Origin: Eubacterium sp.
GTDB taxonomy: Bacteria; Bacillota; Clostridia; Lachnospirales; Lachnospiraceae
Assembly: GCA_024696635.1 (NCBI GenBank)
Contig: JAILGP010000014.1
Coordinates: 1 to 35,683, forward strand
Reading direction: 5' to 3'
DNA length: 35,683 nucleotides
Shown here: piece by piece, positions 23,737-34,656 of the stretch
Layout of the letters: each line of letters opens with the position of its first letter
How positions within the stretch are numbered: position 1 is the first letter of the stretch
Notes under the pieces: model-generated
Database searches by the model: none
What the model was told of the DNA's origin: nothing
Seen by the model: only the letters and a program-made list of their open reading frames with translations
Position numbers and translations under genes: made by a program

Positions 23737-24909
23737 TTATAGTCTGCTTATACCTGATCTGATAGCCTCTTCCTTAACAGCCTGAGCTACAACCTTGGCT
23801 ACATTTTCATTAAATGCATCAGGTATGATATATTCTTCATTTAACTCTTCGTCAGTAACTATTGAAGCAATAGCTCTTGCAGCAGCTTCCTTCATTGGTT
23901 CAGTTATAGCTCTTGCCCTCGCATCCAGTGCACCACGGAAGATACCAGGAAATACAAGAACATTATTAATCTGATTAGGGAAATCCGAACGACCTGTAGC
24001 TATGATTCTTGCTCCGCCCTTCTTTGCATCTTCAGGCATGATTTCAGGTGTAGGATTAGCCATTGCAAATACTATTGCATCATCGGCCATAGACTCAACC
24101 ATCTGACTTGTTACTATTCCAGGAGCTGACACACCAATAAATACATCCTTACCCTTAATTACATCTGCAAGGCTTCCAGTTTCCTTATACTTATTTGTGA
24201 CAGCAGCGATTTCCTGCTTTGCTGAATTAAGACTTGTATCACCTTCAACAATAGCGCCCTTTCTGTCTACCATAACAACATTTCCGATTCCAAAGCTCTG
24301 AAGAAGCTTACAAATTGATATACCGGCTGATCCAGCACCACTTATTACAGCGCTTACATCTTCCCATTTCTTCCCTACAATCTTAAGAGCATTTGTAAGT
24401 CCAGCAGCAACAACTATAGCTGTACCATGCTGATCATCATGGAATACTGGAATATCAAGCTCTTCCTTAAGTCTTGCTTCTATCTCAAAGCATCTAGGTG
24501 CTGAAATATCTTCAAGATTAATTCCACCAAAGGATGGAGCAAGTCTCTTAACAGTCTCTACTATTTCATCAGTATCCTTTGTATCAATGCAGATAGGAAA
24601 TGCATCTACATTTCCAAATCTCTTAAAAAGAACTGATTTTCCTTCCATTACAGGTATAGCTGCAAGAGGACCTATATCACCAAGTCCAAGAACTGCTGTT
24701 CCATCAGATACAACTGCCACAGTATTACATTTAAGTGTATACTTGTAAACATCATCAGGATTCTCATGAATCTTTCTACAAGGTTCTGCAACTCCAGGGG
24801 TATAGGCAGTGGAAAGATCCTCCTTTGTTTCAACTGGCACCTTAAGTGCTACTTCAAGTTTTCCTTCATGTTCTTCATGCATTTTAAGACTAGCTGCATT
24901 ATAATCCAT
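23737..24909 (-). CDS. NAD(P)-dependent malic enzyme
   Basis: AYTPGVAEPCRKI, VSDGTAVLGLGDIGPLAAIPVMEGK, FHDDQHGTAIVVAAGL, FAMANPTPEIMPEDAK, NQINNVLVFPGIFRGALDARA. Confidence 0.95.
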   Translation of the reverse strand: MDYNAASLKMHEEHEGKLEVALKVPVETKEDLSTAYTPGVAEPCRKIHENPDDVYKYTLKCNTVAVVSDGTAVLGLGDIGPLAAIPVMEGKSVLFKRFGNVDAFPICIDTKDTDEIVETVKRLAPSFGGINLEDISAPRCFEIEARLKEELDIPVFHDDQHGTAIVVAAGLTNALKIVGKKWEDVSAVISGAGSAGISICKLLQSFGIGNVVMVDRKGAIVEGDTSLNSAKQEIAAVTNKYKETGSLADVIKGKDVFIGVSAPGIVTSQMVESMADDAIVFAMANPTPEIMPEDAKKGGARIIATGRSDFPNQINNVLVFPGIFRGALDARARAITEPMKEAAARAIASIVTDEELNEEYIIPDAFNENVAKVVAQAVKEEAIRSGISRL

Positions 24910-24950: not shown

Positions 24951-25820
24951 CTAAGAAAGGAAATCGCTTATAGACATCTGTTGTCCAACCTGCTTATTCT
25001 CATATCTACGCTTCCAGTCGCGTATACGCTTTGAATCAGCAACAATTCCATATTTTTCACAAAGCTTAATCATATTGCCAAGTAATTCCTTATGATTTTC
25101 AGGAAGTAATTCTGGTGATTCCCTGCACCGTTCCACATATCTTGCATACTCCTGAGGAAAACGTTTTCTATATTCCTGATAGAAAAAGTTCCTGTCAGCT
25201 TTAGGTATAGCAAGCCTTAGATCTGACAAGTCAAGCCTTTCCACACCATACTCTGCCATAGTTTCAATCATACTCTGCAGCTCATAAACAGAGTCATTTA
25301 CATATGGAACAAGAGGATAAAATGCAGCTAAGACATCTATCTTCTCCTTCTTCAGAAGCTTGATAAGCTCCAGTCTCTGCTGAAGCTTCATAGTCTGACC
25401 TCCTTCAATAAGCTTTATCCTTGCATCTGACATGGCAGGAAAGGTTATCTCAACAACACATTTTGTTTTAGATGAAATCCCCTTAAGAATATCCAGATCC
25501 CTTGTTATTTCAAAACGCTTTGTAGATATTATCACACCATGGTCATAATTTTCAATAACCTTAAGACACTCTCTTGTTAACTTAAACTCTTCTTCATATT
25601 CCGAATAAGGATCACCCAGATTACCCATAAGTATCATACCTGGTTTTCTTCTGGATTTCAGAGTCTTAGCCAAATTTTGAGGAGCATCCATCTTAACGCC
25701 TATATCCATAGGATCCTGAACCCTGCTAACCGTAAGAAGAATAGAATCCTCCGTTCTTCCCACGTATATATTCAGTCCATTCTGAGGAGTCAGAATATTT
25801 TGAGAATTAATTATATACAT
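24951..25820 (-). CDS. SPL-type radical-SAM-like protein lacking the CxxxCxxC cluster motif
   Basis: Scaffold motifs NILTPQNGLNIY, GNLGDPYSEYEEEFKLTRECLKVI, STKRFEITRDLDIL, TKCVVEITF, YPLVPYVND; the cysteine segment reads VGRTEDSILLTVSRVQDP. Confidence 0.7.
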   Translation of the reverse strand: MYIINSQNILTPQNGLNIYVGRTEDSILLTVSRVQDPMDIGVKMDAPQNLAKTLKSRRKPGMILMGNLGDPYSEYEEEFKLTRECLKVIENYDHGVIISTKRFEITRDLDILKGISSKTKCVVEITFPAMSDARIKLIEGGQTMKLQQRLELIKLLKKEKIDVLAAFYPLVPYVNDSVYELQSMIETMAEYGVERLDLSDLRLAIPKADRNFFYQEYRKRFPQEYARYVERCRESPELLPENHKELLGNMIKLCEKYGIVADSKRIRDWKRRYENKQVGQQMSISDFLS

Positions 25821-25965: not shown

Positions 25966-28900
25966 TTAAACGAAGTCAAAGGTTGCCTGTTCGTAATCAA
26001 GGGACTTATATTCCATTTCCTCACCCTTAGTCTTACTACTATAAGAAACAACAACCGTAGTAGTCTTGTTACCCTTCATCTGCTGCCCCAGCACATAATT
26101 GATATCAAATCTACCTGTAATCTCAGGTGTTGCTCCTCGGGCAGGAACTATAAGCTGGCAGGAATTTTCTGCAAGAAGATTAAATATAGGCTCCCAAATA
26201 TAAATATCCTTAGCCGCTCCAAAGGGGTTATCAATAAAGAGAGTCTTGGACCTTTTCTCACTTCCAGCTGTAGCATACATACCCGAAATATAATTAATGA
26301 TTGAAATAAGGAACTGTATATAAATACCCTGAGACTGTCCCGTACTACCTACAGCCTCCTCATACCTAAGGTACCTGCTTTGTTCCTTAATACGTTCTCT
26401 CTTATAAAGCTGAAGTCTTATCTTGGACATATCACTTACAATAACAGAGAAAAGCTTCTTCATAGCAAGATTGATACTAAGAGTCTTCTGTCTCTCTGCA
26501 TCACTTTCCTTCTTATCAAGCTCTTCAACTATATGGTCTATATACTGAGACATTCTTTCTTCTATAAACTCATCCTTAACATAGGGAATAGAAAGCTTTA
26601 TCATCTGTATTCTTTCTCCATCCATATTTATTTCAGAAAGCTTGGTCAACTTATCAAGCTCCGATTTAACATCCAGGCATCTTTCCACACACTGATTTAC
26701 AAAGCTTTCCTTAAGTTTCTCCATACTATCCAAGCTCTTCTCAATCCTGTCTCTTTCCAGAATTATAATATCTGTAACATCCTTAAGTCTTGATCTAAGC
26801 CCTTCTGCCTCCTGTCTGTTATTAGGAATGTTAACATCATCCCTTATAGAAGCCGCAAGCTCCAAGGCCTTCATCTCATTTAGAGTCTCATAAACCTTAA
26901 GCTTAACCTTCATTATATCGGACTTAGCTCTATCTATAGCCTTAGTGACCTTATCATATTCCACCAGATTCATTTCAAATATTTCTCTCAAATCATCTGA
27001 TTCAATAATGGTAAGAGAACCTAAATCGATGGAGGCAGTTTCTACAATTCTATTAGCAAGCTTTAATAGATCATCATTGCCCTTTACCTTATTATTAAAT
27101 GCCTTCTCATCAGCTTCTGCTCTTGAAAGTGCCTCCTTCTTATCATTACAAAGAAGCATAGCCTTTTCTATGGAGCGTCTGATATCCTGAGTATATTCCT
27201 CCTCAAGATTATCTAATTTATCAAGGGCTTCCTGACCATGTTCACCAACCAGTCTTGTTCTTGCATATTCAATACTTCCTTCTAGCTTTGCAAGTTCATT
27301 TAACTGTTTTATTTTTTCTCCTCTGATCCTGTCAGACTTATCCTTGATCTCAGCTATTTCTTTATTTAGCCCCGCTATAACTTCAGGATTTACAGCTATA
27401 AGCTCCTTCTCCTTCTTTTTTATATCCTCTATATCAACTCCCAGTTCAGCAATACTTCTTCTACATCTTTCAATAGAAGAAGTAAGAGTATCCATAAGAA
27501 GTTTTTCCTTCTCACTAGATATCCTGCCCTTAGCACCACCTACGACAGAATCAAAAGCTCTCTCAAGCTCTTGAAAATTCATATCCGACTTTATAAATTT
27601 GGATTCGATATAATAAGGAGAAAATTTATTTTCCCATTTAAATGTAATTTCATCTCTTTTCTGCTTAAGGCCTTCCAGATTTCCTCTCTGCATCACAAGC
27701 TCAGACATAGTCTTATCTTCACTATGTTTTATATCTTCAAGCCTTTCCAGTATAGCCTCCTTATCCTTCTTATATTTTTCCTTTTCCTTAAGAAGACTAT
27801 CTTCCCTATCCTGTACAGATACAAGCTTATTAAGACTTATCAGCTCAGCCTGATATTTTCTTATATTAGAACCAAGTTCTTCAGCCTCATCATCCAGCTT
27901 ATATAACTTGTTCTTAAGCATAAGCTCCTGGTCAGCCATTTCCTTCATAGATTTTTCAAGAAGGTCCCGCTCCTTACTAAGCGCCTCCTTCTGTTCTTCA
28001 GCCTTCATATAATCCTTATCTATAAGGCTTCTGACAAAATCCATATCCTCATTTATGGTATCCAGCATCTGCTCTGCAGTTCTAAGCTCTTCCTTCTTAT
28101 TATCCAGCTCTCCGCCTAAAATTCTAAGCTTTCTATCAAGATTCTTTGGATCTATAAAGAAGTCAGGCTGTCTTCTAACAAAATATGCTCCATCACCAAG
28201 ATATATATCTATTGTATCCAGCATATCCCTGTCATATAGTAGTATTTCTTCTTCTATATTAAGTTCTTTAAGCCCGGGATCATCCTTTAAGCTATCAAGA
28301 TTTCTTACTACAACTCCATAGGGAAGTCCAGGAAGCTTCTTAAGCAGCTTTTCTTTCCTTTCCTCTGGAAGAGCCGACAGATAATCCATTCCATACATAG
28401 CATCACTGCTATGACGAGTAAACAGATAATCAATAACATGCTTTACCCCATAGGTTTCAGAAATCAGCTTCCCATCACGGATTTCCTTCTCCCTTTCCTC
28501 AAGCTCACTAACAGACTGCTTAAGTTCATATATATTAATTACATTTCCACTTATCCTGTCTCTCAGGTTATCCAGAAGCACTTCTGGTCTTACATCCTTA
28601 GCCCCTGCATAAATGGTACTGATTGAAGTATACTTAGGTTTAATCTTGGCATACTGATCAATCAATTGGTCTAATTCTTCAAGACTTTTTATAATACCCT
28701 TACGCTGATTAGTCCTATCCATATATTCTGAACGTATATCATCAAGCTGAGCCTGACATTCCCTCTTATCCTGTTCATTGCCAAGAAGTCTTTTTTCTGC
28801 TTTTTCCAGCCTGTCAGATCTGTCTTTATAGGAAGATGCAGGATCAATCATAAGTGAATATTCAATATCATCCCTTAATTCATCTAAAGTCTTATCTATA

Positions 28901-30393
28901 TCCTTAAGTTCAATATCAGCATAATCAGATCTACTATCCAAAACCGCAAGCTCAGTCTCCGCTTCAGACTTCTTCTTTGCCCTGAGACTGATTTCTTCTT
29001 CCAGCTGTCTTATCCACTCTTCAGTAGAACTGATTTTCCCAGTAAGATCATTAAGCTGTCCATCAATAAGTCTATGAATGTTATATGTAATAGCATAGAT
29101 ATCATTCATTCCATTTGAAATACCATTTGTAATATTATCCCTGTCCTTCTTAAGAGCCTCCAGCTCTTCCTCCTGCCTCTTCATTTCAAGATATTCAGCA
29201 GCAGCCTTAAGATTCTTCATGATGGTACTACTATGCTCCAGCTTTTCCTTTATTCTTTCCTCTTCCATTTCGAGCTTTTCTATATTATCTTTTCTTTCCT
29301 GATAAGCACTAAGCTCTTTATATATTTTAAGAATTTCATAAAGACTTATGGCATGAGCAAGATCTCTTCTTGCTTCTTCTACCTTTGCTATAAGCTCAGC
29401 CTTCTTAGTCTCTCTTTCTGTCTTCTCAATTTCCAGAGTCTTTGCGACACGACCACATTCCTTGGCGACCTCATCCTGTTTTTTATAAAGATCCATAAAT
29501 GAATCAACTCTCGAAGAAAGAAGCTCCACCAGCTGACACTCATGATCATACATCTGTATATCCTTTTTCTTTTCAGCAAGAGTCCTCAACTCTTCCTGTA
29601 TGGTCATAAGCAAAGTAACTGTACTCTCAGTTTTTTCACTTTCTCTTTCAGTCTTTGTATGGTATGCCTTCTCTATTATCTCTTCTATAAGAAGATCTTC
29701 AATAACCTTCCTGGTAGTCTTATAATTAGTCTCAAAATATGTTCTTACATGACCTTCAGTCTTATTGATTCCCCTTATTATTTCCCACTGACTTTCATAA
29801 AGTCCATAGTCAGCTATAAACCTCTGATACTCACCCTTACGGTCAAATATATGAACAACAAGATTCTTATCATTTCTAGAAAGATCGTGAAGATAATTTT
29901 TAAGAGCCTTATAGGATATTCTTTCATTATCCTTCTCTAAGGGAAGATTAATAATATCATTTTTATTATATTCCCTGTAAAATATGACGTAATTAAAATA
30001 CTCTATCCTGGCAGTCTCAAATTCTGATTCCTTGCCCTGATTCTCCCCTGACACCTCCACTTCCCCTGTGGTTGCTTTTTTAGCAGCAAAGCCCGTAGTC
30101 ATAAAACGAAGGCCTTCCTTAGCCTCTGAAGGATCCAATTTCCATTCTATAAGTGAATGAATAACTGTATTACTAGAATCCCTAAAGAGCTTCTCTATAG
30201 GCTGTTTATCATCCAGTGTAGAATTAGGTATAAGATTCTGCATAAGAAGAAGCATAAGTACACTCTTTCCTCCACCATTTGCAAGGTCATAAAGTGTATT
30301 TCTTCCATACATCTTCATTGAGAAATCATCATATTCCTGAGTCCCAAAATTATATTTAACATTATTTACCCTGATACGATTAATACTTGGCAT
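25966..30393 (-). CDS. SMC-like coiled-coil ATPase, JetC/MukB-like (1475 aa)
   Basis: N-terminal Walker A DLANGGGKSVLML; very long coiled coils flanking a central globular region; C-terminal GSTGQSQG and TLFIDNPFGAAKD. Confidence 0.8.
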   Translation of the reverse strand: MPSINRIRVNNVKYNFGTQEYDDFSMKMYGRNTLYDLANGGGKSVLMLLLMQNLIPNSTLDDKQPIEKLFRDSSNTVIHSLIEWKLDPSEAKEGLRFMTTGFAAKKATTGEVEVSGENQGKESEFETARIEYFNYVIFYREYNKNDIINLPLEKDNERISYKALKNYLHDLSRNDKNLVVHIFDRKGEYQRFIADYGLYESQWEIIRGINKTEGHVRTYFETNYKTTRKVIEDLLIEEIIEKAYHTKTERESEKTESTVTLLMTIQEELRTLAEKKKDIQMYDHECQLVELLSSRVDSFMDLYKKQDEVAKECGRVAKTLEIEKTERETKKAELIAKVEEARRDLAHAISLYEILKIYKELSAYQERKDNIEKLEMEEERIKEKLEHSSTIMKNLKAAAEYLEMKRQEEELEALKKDRDNITNGISNGMNDIYAITYNIHRLIDGQLNDLTGKISSTEEWIRQLEEEISLRAKKKSEAETELAVLDSRSDYADIELKDIDKTLDELRDDIEYSLMIDPASSYKDRSDRLEKAEKRLLGNEQDKRECQAQLDDIRSEYMDRTNQRKGIIKSLEELDQLIDQYAKIKPKYTSISTIYAGAKDVRPEVLLDNLRDRISGNVINIYELKQSVSELEEREKEIRDGKLISETYGVKHVIDYLFTRHSSDAMYGMDYLSALPEERKEKLLKKLPGLPYGVVVRNLDSLKDDPGLKELNIEEEILLYDRDMLDTIDIYLGDGAYFVRRQPDFFIDPKNLDRKLRILGGELDNKKEELRTAEQMLDTINEDMDFVRSLIDKDYMKAEEQKEALSKERDLLEKSMKEMADQELMLKNKLYKLDDEAEELGSNIRKYQAELISLNKLVSVQDREDSLLKEKEKYKKDKEAILERLEDIKHSEDKTMSELVMQRGNLEGLKQKRDEITFKWENKFSPYYIESKFIKSDMNFQELERAFDSVVGGAKGRISSEKEKLLMDTLTSSIERCRRSIAELGVDIEDIKKKEKELIAVNPEVIAGLNKEIAEIKDKSDRIRGEKIKQLNELAKLEGSIEYARTRLVGEHGQEALDKLDNLEEEYTQDIRRSIEKAMLLCNDKKEALSRAEADEKAFNNKVKGNDDLLKLANRIVETASIDLGSLTIIESDDLREIFEMNLVEYDKVTKAIDRAKSDIMKVKLKVYETLNEMKALELAASIRDDVNIPNNRQEAEGLRSRLKDVTDIIILERDRIEKSLDSMEKLKESFVNQCVERCLDVKSELDKLTKLSEINMDGERIQMIKLSIPYVKDEFIEERMSQYIDHIVEELDKKESDAERQKTLSINLAMKKLFSVIVSDMSKIRLQLYKRERIKEQSRYLRYEEAVGSTGQSQGIYIQFLISIINYISGMYATAGSEKRSKTLFIDNPFGAAKDIYIWEPIFNLLAENSCQLIVPARGATPEITGRFDINYVLGQQMKGNKTTTVVVSYSSKTKGEEMEYKSLDYEQATFDFV

Positions 30394-30403
30394 AGGATGC
30401 TCC

Positions 30404-31120
30404 TTAATCTTCTTGATTTAAATCTGTTTGATTTAAAGCCGCATAGATCATGCTGCCATTATCTTCAAAATAACCTTCCGCTATAGCGTGAAACCTGTCT
30501 GTAGGATATAGTCTGTCATCAATCACTGTCACTATACCCTCATTAACAAGCATATTGGATGTAAGCTTAATAAATCCAAGTCTGGATCCACGTGATGCCT
30601 TGGTCCTGTCCTTATCCTCAGAAATCATAGGAGGAAGTGAATCCCAGAGAAGTGCCACCTCCATCATTGAGCCATCATCCTCATCATTTGTAATAACATG
30701 GGTATCACCACTTATACGAGACATTTCCTTACCCACCTTATCTATCAGCTCATCCTCTCTTATATAATCCTTTACCTGATAAGTATCTGATGTTTTATAA
30801 AAATCCAAAAGAAGCTCATAAATAATTATGTAAACCAAATACAATTCCTTATTAAGCCTGAGTCCCAGCATTTTCTTAAGATCATCATTTGTATATCCAA
30901 ATACCCTATTTCCTGCTCCGGCAGTAACAAAAATCGATTCATTATATTCATAAATCCTGAGATTAAGCCTTTTCAAAAGAGCCATTGTTATATCATATAC
31001 ACCTGAATCAGCATAAAATGCCTCGTATAGTTCAGCTGTTTCTTTATCCTTTGCAGATATACTTCTTCCTGTAGCAAGCGCACTATAAATATCCAGCGCC
31101 TTCTCCAATGTCTTTTCCAT
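30404..31120 (-). CDS. JetB/MukE-like subunit (238 aa)
   Basis: Position between kleisin-like and SMC-like genes, 10 nt from jetC-like gene; winged-helix-like C-terminus (LGFIKLTSNMLVNEGIVTVIDDRLYPTDRFHAIAEGYF). Confidence 0.65.
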   Translation of the reverse strand: MEKTLEKALDIYSALATGRSISAKDKETAELYEAFYADSGVYDITMALLKRLNLRIYEYNESIFVTAGAGNRVFGYTNDDLKKMLGLRLNKELYLVYIIIYELLLDFYKTSDTYQVKDYIREDELIDKVGKEMSRISGDTHVITNDEDDGSMMEVALLWDSLPPMISEDKDRTKASRGSRLGFIKLTSNMLVNEGIVTVIDDRLYPTDRFHAIAEGYFEDNGSMIYAALNQTDLNQED

Positions 31121-31213
31121 TATTTTCTCCCATGTCTATATGAGTTGATAATTTTTATATGTCCTTATTAATCAAACAATAATCTTATGTTTTGATTTTA
31201 ATTAGGATTCTTA

Positions 31214-32809
31214 TTATTTTGATATAAATCTCATACCAGTTATTTCTGCCAATTTATCATTAGCCTCCACCCCCAGCTTTAAGCTTTGGCCTGTAAATTC
31301 TATAACAAAACTCATATCCTTATACTGGTCCAATTTCTCTTCAGGTATATTTTCCAAAACCACTTCTTCCAAAAATGTTTCAGCATCTTCTCTTATAGCC
31401 TTTACTGAATATTCAGTTTTTCCAGCCAAATGTGTAAGGAAGGAATAATAGTCCCTGTTCTTATATATATCTTTTCCAAACTTAACTTCCAATATGGCAT
31501 TATATTCTTCAAGGGTAAGGCTATTCCATCTTCTAAGTCTTCCTAAAAGCTCCATAAATAGCTTAGCAAAATTACGACCCATATTTTCGCTTAAAAGCTC
31601 GTCATCATATTTAAAATTAAGATCAGGCTTTTCAACCTCTTTTATTTCGCCCTTCATAGAGTCCCCTGTCTTTTGAAGGATTACATTATCTATTGTATTA
31701 ATAGCTAAGGACTTTTCTCTTCTAGGTAGTAAAAAAGGAGCAACCAAAAGCTCCATAAGCTCTGGTCTATCTTCTCTTATAATCCTGCCAAGTAAAGTCT
31801 CATAATCAAAGGATGCCCTAAGACTTCTTGTCCTGCTTCTTCTAACCATTTCATCCGAAAATTTGGATAGTTCAGCCGCCTTCATAATAAGCTCACTATG
31901 ACTCTCAATAGTCTGCTTAAGCATATTCTGAAGATTAGTAATATCTCTTGCAGTCTGCGAAGTATCTCCATAGCTTATTCTAGCCACAGCCTTATCAATG
32001 AGCTCCCTGTTTTTTGCAAAGGATTTCCTCTCCTCCGCAAACCATACAGCCGTACGATCCATATATTCGTCTACCGCAGCTGTACCCGCATGAACATCTG
32101 TAAGAAGAAGCTGTACAACTTCTTCGCGTTTTTTATCAAGAGCCTTAACCTCTATATTTATTCTTTCTATAACATCCAGACTTCCATGGAAATTTTCAGA
32201 TTTTATAAGCTTCTCAAGAAGTAGCTGGTCCATATTTATACGGCTTTCGTCTCGTATTTCCTTTGTAGTCAGATAAAATTCTATACCATCTTCAGTAATG
32301 GTATATTCAACCTCAGATTCCCGGACTATACTATCTATCAGCCTTACTCTAACAAGGCTCATTTTCTTCTTAGCCGGATCATAGAAATTCATTTCAAAAG
32401 CCCGGCCATTATTCCTTATCTTATCAAAGATATATTTGACAAGCTCCTTCATTTCCTCACTTGCATAATATATATCATTTGTAGCAGTGACCGAATTAAT
32501 AGCATTTTCAGTTTCCGGAATTCCAGCCCTTTTCAGCTTCATATCAAAATCTCTCTGAAGAAGGTCCATACAAAATCTTTCATAACCCTTATATTTAACC
32601 GGACTATCACTAAAACTATTTTCATTTATAAAATACCTGAGAACTGCAAGAGTAATATAACCCATATCAAGAAAACGGAATCTTCCATCCTTATATTGGT
32701 TAAATGTACCTTCAGCCAAAGTAAAAAAAGGATAAAACTTCCTTAGGTTCAAAATTCTCTCACTATGATTTTTAATTATGTCATCAATCAGGGTGTACTG
32801 TTCAGCCAT
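31214..32809 (-). CDS. JetA/MukF-like kleisin subunit (531 aa)
   Basis: First gene of the three-gene operon; helical protein with ENFHGSLDVIERINIEVKALDKKREEVVQLLLTDVHAGTAAVDEYMDRTAVWFAEERKSFAKN, resembling DUF5716/JetA-family proteins. Confidence 0.65.
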   Translation of the reverse strand: MAEQYTLIDDIIKNHSERILNLRKFYPFFTLAEGTFNQYKDGRFRFLDMGYITLAVLRYFINENSFSDSPVKYKGYERFCMDLLQRDFDMKLKRAGIPETENAINSVTATNDIYYASEEMKELVKYIFDKIRNNGRAFEMNFYDPAKKKMSLVRVRLIDSIVRESEVEYTITEDGIEFYLTTKEIRDESRINMDQLLLEKLIKSENFHGSLDVIERINIEVKALDKKREEVVQLLLTDVHAGTAAVDEYMDRTAVWFAEERKSFAKNRELIDKAVARISYGDTSQTARDITNLQNMLKQTIESHSELIMKAAELSKFSDEMVRRSRTRSLRASFDYETLLGRIIREDRPELMELLVAPFLLPRREKSLAINTIDNVILQKTGDSMKGEIKEVEKPDLNFKYDDELLSENMGRNFAKLFMELLGRLRRWNSLTLEEYNAILEVKFGKDIYKNRDYYSFLTHLAGKTEYSVKAIREDAETFLEEVVLENIPEEKLDQYKDMSFVIEFTGQSLKLGVEANDKLAEITGMRFISK

Positions 32810-33171
32810 TATAAAAATAGTCCTTTTATAAATATTTAAAATTCATCAAAAAAAATCTGCACACAGACCGTCTTATTATACCACATATTATGAAGGTATA
32901 CTATTCACAGATTATTAAAAAATTGGCAAAATTACAAAGCTTTAATATAAAACATGGCAAATCCTAATACTAAATACAAAACATGAATTATAAATGAAAT
33001 ATAAAACATGAAATCTGATTAAAAAAATAAAAATAAATATAGAAAAAGAAAATTAACAATAAAGTGTTTAATTTTAAGAAAAATTAGTGTAAATTATGAT
33101 TTATGATTTGAATCCAAATCAATAAACATAGTTAAAGTCAATAATTCATTTAGGAATCCGAAAATAAATAT

Positions 33172-34656
33172 ATGAAAAATAATACAGAAAATAATAATAA
33201 TCAGAATAATAATAAAAACAAAATAATCGCATTAACAATACTTCTTATAGGAATTTTAATGATATGCATACTCTACTTTCTCGGAAACCATGATTTTAAT
33301 ACCAGGAATACATATAATCAATCAAAAACTCCTAAGCAGGAAGAGCATGTAAATTCTGATGCTTCTAAAAAAATAGCAAGCCAAACCGACACTGAAAAAA
33401 CTGATACTGCAAATAATACAGTCTCAAAAACAGATTCTTCATCTGATCAGAAATATAAAGATAATAACCAATCAAAAGACTCCCATCCCTCTGATACAAA
33501 ACAAGTGGGCTGGGTTGTTTACGGTGGCGATAGATACTATTACGATAAAAACGGAAAACCTGTCTCTGGCAGTGTTAAGCTGAATGATAAATATTTCATT
33601 TTTAATAATTCCGGAAAATTGATAAAGGAGGATAAGCTTATCAGCCAAATAAAGGCCATTCCACAAAGTGGTCAACCGATCATAACCTCCGATTACAGCG
33701 GCGCACAGCATAAAGCAAATGAAGAAGCAAATTATAACTATGCCGATAGAAGTAAGGTAGCAGCAAATACAAATTCCATTTCTCAGAATAATTCAAATAC
33801 AGAAACAACAAAAGAAAGCAACAATATCAGCACTGACAAAGAATCGGATTCAAATAATGAAGCTGATGCAGAATCCGATAAGGAATATATACATGATACA
33901 TTAGTTGGAATAGGTGGATACACTCCAACAGATAAAGATAATCTTATGATAAACAACCGAATAAATGAACTGTCAGGATATAATGTTGGTTTTTCAATGA
34001 TCAATCTTTATACAGGAAAGGGTATAGCCTACAACGTTGACAATAGCGAATATTCCGCAAGCTGTATCAAAGGTATATATGTCGCTAGCCTTGTTTCAGA
34101 GAATCCGGATACACTTAAATCCAGATTTAATACAATGCAGGAAGTTGTATCAAATTCTGATAACGACGGCTACAATTCTCTGCGCGGCTCCTACGGAAGA
34201 GCTCCACTCGTTAAATGGTGTGAGGAGTTGGAACTGGATTCTCAAGTATCCTACCACTACTATCCATTTATATCAGCAAGAGAACTTGCAATCCTATGGA
34301 TACATACTTACTTCTTCCTAAATACAGATGAAAACGGTATGCAGATAAAAGATATTTATACAAGTCCCATATATGATTCAATTTATACAGTCCTGGGTAA
34401 TTATGGAACAGAAAATGATACTGTTAACTATAGTATGTCTCTATCAAACACTATAGGAAAAGGCTATAGAACAGAGTCCAAGGCTGGCTGGATAAGCAGT
34501 CCACACTACTGTTCAACAACAGATGGCGGGATTATATATCCTCCTGAGGGAGACCCATATATAATCACCATATGCACTGACCTGCCAGCTGACCTTATGT
34601 CACTTGAACCATTATGCAGCACACTAGATACTATATATCAAAATACCTGCGACTAA
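33172..34656 (+). CDS. Membrane-anchored serine hydrolase (class A beta-lactamase-like) with choline/cell-wall-binding-type repeat
   Basis: TM IIALTILLIGILMICILYFLG; VGWVVYGGDRYYYDKNGKPVSGSVKLNDKYFIFNNSGKLI; SCIK (SxxK), SDN, SKAGW (KTG-like). Confidence 0.7.
   Translation: MKNNTENNNNQNNNKNKIIALTILLIGILMICILYFLGNHDFNTRNTYNQSKTPKQEEHVNSDASKKIASQTDTEKTDTANNTVSKTDSSSDQKYKDNNQSKDSHPSDTKQVGWVVYGGDRYYYDKNGKPVSGSVKLNDKYFIFNNSGKLIKEDKLISQIKAIPQSGQPIITSDYSGAQHKANEEANYNYADRSKVAANTNSISQNNSNTETTKESNNISTDKESDSNNEADAESDKEYIHDTLVGIGGYTPTDKDNLMINNRINELSGYNVGFSMINLYTGKGIAYNVDNSEYSASCIKGIYVASLVSENPDTLKSRFNTMQEVVSNSDNDGYNSLRGSYGRAPLVKWCEELELDSQVSYHYYPFISARELAILWIHTYFFLNTDENGMQIKDIYTSPIYDSIYTVLGNYGTENDTVNYSMSLSNTIGKGYRTESKAGWISSPHYCSTTDGGIIYPPEGDPYIITICTDLPADLMSLEPLCSTLDTIYQNTCD

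Follow-up and report, generated by a model that had tools for sequence, protein, structure and literature searches.

The window, a stretch of 35,683 bp that constitutes a complete contig of a 240-contig genome assembly (97.2% complete), carries three minus-strand genes whose products match the type III Wadjet models of PADLOC end to end. The first of these, jetA (31214..32809), encodes a 531-aa kleisin subunit of the JetA3 family (PDLC00560, 568 bits). It is followed by jetB (30404..31120), which encodes a 238-aa KITE (MukE-like) subunit of the DUF6063/JetB3 family (PF19539, 137 bits; PDLC00571, 267 bits), and by jetC (25966..30393), which encodes a 1475-aa SMC ATPase subunit (JetC3, PDLC00581, 1474 bits over residues 1-1475). 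The gaps are 93 bp between jetA and jetB and 10 bp between jetB and jetC, and all three reading frames are intact and full length. A preliminary description of the locus had proposed a JetA-JetB-JetC layout for three minus-strand ORFs of 531, 238 and 1475 aa; their exact coordinates were reproduced, and the layout was confirmed by the JetA3, JetB3 and JetC3 profiles. Membership of an unrelated SMC-like family, which the same description had named as evidence against its proposal, is contradicted by the position of the proteins inside the type III Wadjet tree.

Structural comparisons agree with these assignments to different degrees. The predicted JetB model (pLDDT 79.7) has JetB or MukE proteins as all ten of its best PDB fold matches, the first being JetB of the P. 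aeruginosa PA14 Wadjet system (8dk1_F). The AlphaFold model of JetA (pLDDT 77, pTM only 0.37) has MukF (9gm7_C) and JetA (8q72_E) as its leading PDB folds, and since the TM-scores are low, the predicted resemblance of JetA to MukF/JetA is supportive rather than strong. Searched against the PDB by sequence, JetC gave no significant match beyond its coiled coils, and the window subunits had no match to the MukB/MksB family in Pfam or NCBIfam.

JetC contains a Walker A motif (NGGGKS, 30262..30279), an ABC signature (STGQSQG, 26326..26346) and a Walker B region (DNPF, 26221..26232), all on the minus strand. Alignments show that the ATPase motifs are invariant in the JetD-less clade to which this JetC belongs (see below), including NGGGKS and STGQSQG, and that DNPF is common to canonical type III proteins. 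The signature reads NSGGE in most canonical type III JetC. STGQSQG was considered as a specific marker of JetD loss and rejected, because a jetD-bearing locus outside the family (L259) has the near-identical GSEGQSN. DNPF occurs in every type III JetC examined, with or without jetD. In ABC ATPases the Walker B aspartate is normally followed by a catalytic glutamate, and the catalytic residue of type III JetC may differ from the usual one.

Wadjet is thought to work by having JetABC reel in a small circle fully, upon which JetD is activated (PMC10586767). No gene for JetD accompanies jetABC in the window, where a type III JetD profile applied to all six frames returned nothing even at E<=10, in keeping with the earlier impression that no ORF there looks like JetD. 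Profile searches with JetA-D and DUF6063 models, which had been proposed as a check, matched JetA3, JetB3, JetC3 and PF19539 and left JetD unmatched; as a positive control, a canonical type III JetD protein scored as JetD3 (PDLC00592, 370 bits). The intergenic region upstream of jetA (32810..33171, minus strand) contains no JetD remnant and no LexA-like box. The search was extended to the whole genome, and neither PF09983 (JetD_C) nor a type III JetD alignment found a match in the 97.2% that is assembled.

The survey of homologue neighbourhoods gave the same result. Among 200 genomes of the same family, JetC had strong matches in 31 (990-1941 bits) and weak matches in 16 (123-190 bits). The strong matches make up the clade of the window, and a JetD_C search combined with gene maps found a linked jetD in 0 of the 31. 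The weak matches are canonical type III proteins, and jetD lies upstream of jetA in 16 of 16, in the order D-A-B-C; in G176 jetD is ~9.5 kb off, and in G136 it is truncated by the contig end. Two genomes, G151 and G174, each have one JetD-less and one canonical type III operon. A scan of named genomes identified 249 relatives, and among the best 80 of the 249, nearly all labelled Lachnospiraceae, Eubacterium or Clostridiales, the number with jetD in the flanks was 0, a count that is slightly generous because some contigs end near jetA. A jetD in conserved linkage, which the preliminary description had named as evidence against its proposal, was thus not encountered in the clade.

It could be argued that jetD is present but unlinked, or that it belongs to the 3% of the genome missing from the assembly. 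The fragmentation of the assembly, and of the draft genomes in general, leaves some room for this, and a JetD_C gene is found somewhere in 11 of 61 species of the genus. Most of these congener genes, however, are located on a different contig or at a distance of 1.4 Mb, with products of ~410-440 aa that exceed type III JetD in length, and none is near this JetC. Strong type III JetD matches in genomes of the clade are confined to G151 and G174, each of which has a separate canonical operon. Since G583, a one-contig genome of the genus, has JetC and no JetD_C match, this explanation is already largely refuted and must be judged very improbable.

The direction of the change can be read from a tree of the JetC head domain rooted with a Pontibacillus plasmid operon (D-A-B-C). 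The JetD-less rows are set apart by a single branch (support 100), nested among jetD-bearing operons, and one change of JetD state suffices. The nearest relatives of the JetD-less clade (L259, L262, L261 and L266) all bear jetD, the exact placing of L261, L266 and L275 being unsure because of their long branches, and 17 of the 20 more distant relatives examined from a class-wide survey have a linked jetD. Because the JetD-less clade is a single supported branch nested in this way, the tree indicates that the nuclease was lost once, early in a Lachnospiraceae clade, in an ancestor shared by a large group of bacteria from gut and rumen. L062 (G092) occupies the base of the clade; it is on a short contig, and its genome has no JetD match elsewhere. 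In another type III lineage, outside the family, L277 (G521:C2, 7030-13836) has jetABC and no recognisable jetD, which may reflect a separate loss or a JetD that has diverged. The same genome contains a solitary jetC (L265; G521:C1, 7276-11694), next to which no jetA, jetB or jetD could be recognised.

The genes that were left behind are under strong constraint. Values of dN/dS for jetA, jetB and jetC range from 0.003 to 0.09 in up to eight pairs, dS being saturated in some of them. Within the genus this JetC is found in 55 of 61 species, normally in one copy, and in 27 of 31 high-quality genomes, and its reading frames have no internal stops and are short only at contig edges; the genus used for the canonical type III comparison comprises two genomes only. 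These observations bear on the suggestion that the locus is a degraded Wadjet, with a recent loss of jetD and a jetABC in decay. The sole point in its favour is the missing jetD itself. Against decay stand a single ancient loss common to the whole clade, intact ATPase motifs, the low dN/dS, frames that are open throughout a genus in which the gene is nearly universal, and the lack of any JetD remnant, which together make degradation extremely improbable and effectively exclude this option of the preliminary description.

The genes around jetABC are largely of the housekeeping kind. Downstream lie genes for a radical-SAM-family protein (24951..25820, minus strand), a conserved neighbour, and a malic enzyme (23737..24909, minus strand), neither of which is claimed to be part of the complex; in the best 80 of the 249 named relatives they recur at 45 and 46 of the 80 loci, respectively. 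Citrate synthase is a further metabolic gene nearby, and the S10/spc/alpha ribosomal-protein and rpoA operons begin ~11 kb downstream on the same strand as jetABC. The gene divergent from jetA (33172-34656, plus strand) encodes a member of the Beta-lactamase2 family that has a choline-binding/glucan-binding-like repeat. Its N-terminus is transmembrane-like, and the protein probably resides at the cell surface. The preliminary description had these neighbours broadly right, but what it called a cell-wall hydrolase is this Beta-lactamase2-family protein, and its radical-SAM-like protein lacks the CxxxCxxC iron-sulfur motif. The motif is also missing, with the ORF kept, at L095-L103, L105-L109, L112, L116, L118-L121, L124-L126, L129, L157 and L166, and it is retained in orthologues of sister lineages (e.g., L111, L113-L115, L117 and L132), so that the neighbour in the window's sub-lineage looks like a conserved pseudo-radical-SAM protein.

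At other loci jetA is located directly behind dnaX-ybaB-recR on the same strand (10 of 31 sampled family loci and 5 of 80 named loci), a placement found in 10 other genera. This arrangement could mean that JetABC is a complex for DNA repair or replication restart, with a role like that of Smc5/6 or RecN, in which it would join RecR/DnaX where gaps occur or forks stall and would not be a bulk chromosome organiser. The window lineage and most named loci are situated elsewhere, though, beside the radical-SAM and malic enzyme genes; the loci behind dnaX-ybaB-recR all fall in one part of the tree and probably go back to a single inherited event; and no LexA-like box was found upstream of jetA in 42 loci. 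A repair function is accordingly considered unlikely. A more specific version, in which part of the clade placed jetABC behind recR after the loss of the Toprim nuclease JetD, so that JetABC now assists RecR/DnaX/EbfC at replication forks and has in RecR, also a Toprim protein, a new Toprim partner, is quite improbable; if true, a defence SMC would have been rebuilt into a replication-repair complex. In two sister sub-lineages tadA is found a few kb upstream of jetABC (L174, L169, L071, L158-L160 and L172), with dnaX-ybaB-recR in between in one and a gene for a cNMP-binding-domain protein (c23) in the other, which suggests that the ancestral jetABC site was in the tadA-dnaX-recR region. Housekeeping neighbours of this kind are a sign of stable residence and not of function.

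Mobile elements do not appear to carry the complex. Relatives were absent from 2.9 million viral contigs and from 50,697 phage records, and the one weak match among 72,556 plasmids is a canonical jetD-bearing operon. Distances between JetC proteins track those between RpoB proteins in 28 genomes (Mantel rho 0.62, p = 0.0005). In the main canonical group the corresponding value is 0.44 (p = 0.054, n = 13), and the stronger tracking of the JetD-less JetC is suggestive only; the canonical group also has some vertical signal (rho 0.44-0.55). The mean JetC distance is 0.62 compared with 0.21 for RpoB, a divergence about as fast as that of canonical Wadjet, and on the scale of the family the clade is patchy, with JetC in 31 of 200 genomes of a sample that holds mostly one genome per genus. 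The complex is dispensable at this scale, as its patchy presence shows.

Patchiness and rapid divergence are features that might be expected if JetABC still served in defence, whether cleavage was dispensed with or left to an effector encoded elsewhere. The complex could sense small circles by extruding them completely and then silence, compact or mis-segregate them, or recruit a distant nuclease. JetABC alone has been described as the sensor (PMC10586767), and the close JetD-bearing kin are all operons of the plasmid-defence type. The preliminary description had likewise listed defence with another effector, but in 111 neighbourhoods no linked replacement effector recurs, only housekeeping or unrelated genes. 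The defence reading must also contend with the 50 of 61 genomes of the genus that have no JetD_C gene at all, with near-core presence in the genus and with absence from mobile elements, and we regard it as rather unlikely.

A gene for ScpA is present in the same genome (G000:C234) and in almost all genomes of the family. It is separate from jetABC, and the partners of the window JetC are JetA and JetB. JetABC is thus additional to SMC-ScpAB; replacement of SMC-ScpAB by JetABC was considered and rejected, as ScpA is retained. Considered together, the data point to jetABC as a type III Wadjet-derived SMC complex that lost JetD once and was domesticated as a second condensin beside SMC-ScpAB, an interpretation which is moderately probable. 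A chromosomal role is the best reading because of the single loss, the purifying selection, the near-core presence, the housekeeping positions and the lack of mobility, and, with the coexistence of ScpA, the option with the best support among the three raised in the preliminary description is that of a condensin without a nuclease, serving the host chromosome. In such a complex, JetC dimers together with the JetA kleisin and a JetB KITE dimer would use ATP to extrude DNA loops, presumably on the host chromosome, and extrusion would help to organise, segregate or maintain that chromosome. Completed extrusion on a small circle would then not be followed by cleavage, as JetD is lacking.

The clade as a set of proteins is already known in that the PADLOC JetA3/B3/C3 HMMs fit it. 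PADLOC demands all four genes for type III Wadjet, and its only label for sets lacking JetD is 'Wadjet other' (PMC9252829). No paper describing a type III clade that lacks JetD was found in the open-access literature, most subscription journals being outside the scope of that search. The clade bears on the question of how SMC complexes pass between immunity and chromosome maintenance, and it looks like an independent case of the conversion of a defence complex to a condensin, from a Wadjet type other than that of MksBEF. The conversion is directly testable because the loss is single and can be placed, the sister operons bear jetD, there are hosts in culture, and both versions occur in G151 and G174. 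The clade also serves as a warning for surveys of defence systems, as Lachnospiraceae loci that match JetABC probably do not serve in plasmid defence.

The complex shares with type III Wadjet three full-length subunit models, the A-B-C order and a place inside the type III JetC tree. It differs in that its clade lacks JetD, has no link to mobile elements, is near-core in the genus and carries STGQSQG in place of the usual NSGGE. It is not a Wadjet in the strict sense because JetD, a defining component, was searched for and not found. Corynebacterium MksBEFG, a type I Wadjet, follows the same subunit logic, but there the nuclease MksG/JetD is present and plasmids are restricted (PMC10123090). 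The JetB model matches MukE, and the JetA model has MukF among its best PDB folds, as likenesses to MukBEF; MukBEF, however, took over from SMC-ScpAB in its hosts (PMC10586767), whereas ScpA is retained here. The closest precedent is MksBEF of P. aeruginosa, likewise a nuclease-free SMC-kleisin-KITE complex beside SMC-ScpAB, whose case suggests that a defence complex can become a condensin by losing its nuclease (PMC10586767). The window complex differs from it in deriving from a type III Wadjet in Lachnospiraceae, in having no match to the MksB family and in that its chromosomal role is a predicted one. With its nuclease-free set of SMC, kleisin and KITE subunits, and with sequences outside the MukB/MksB families, it is predicted to work like MksBEF and MukBEF while not being a member of either by sequence.
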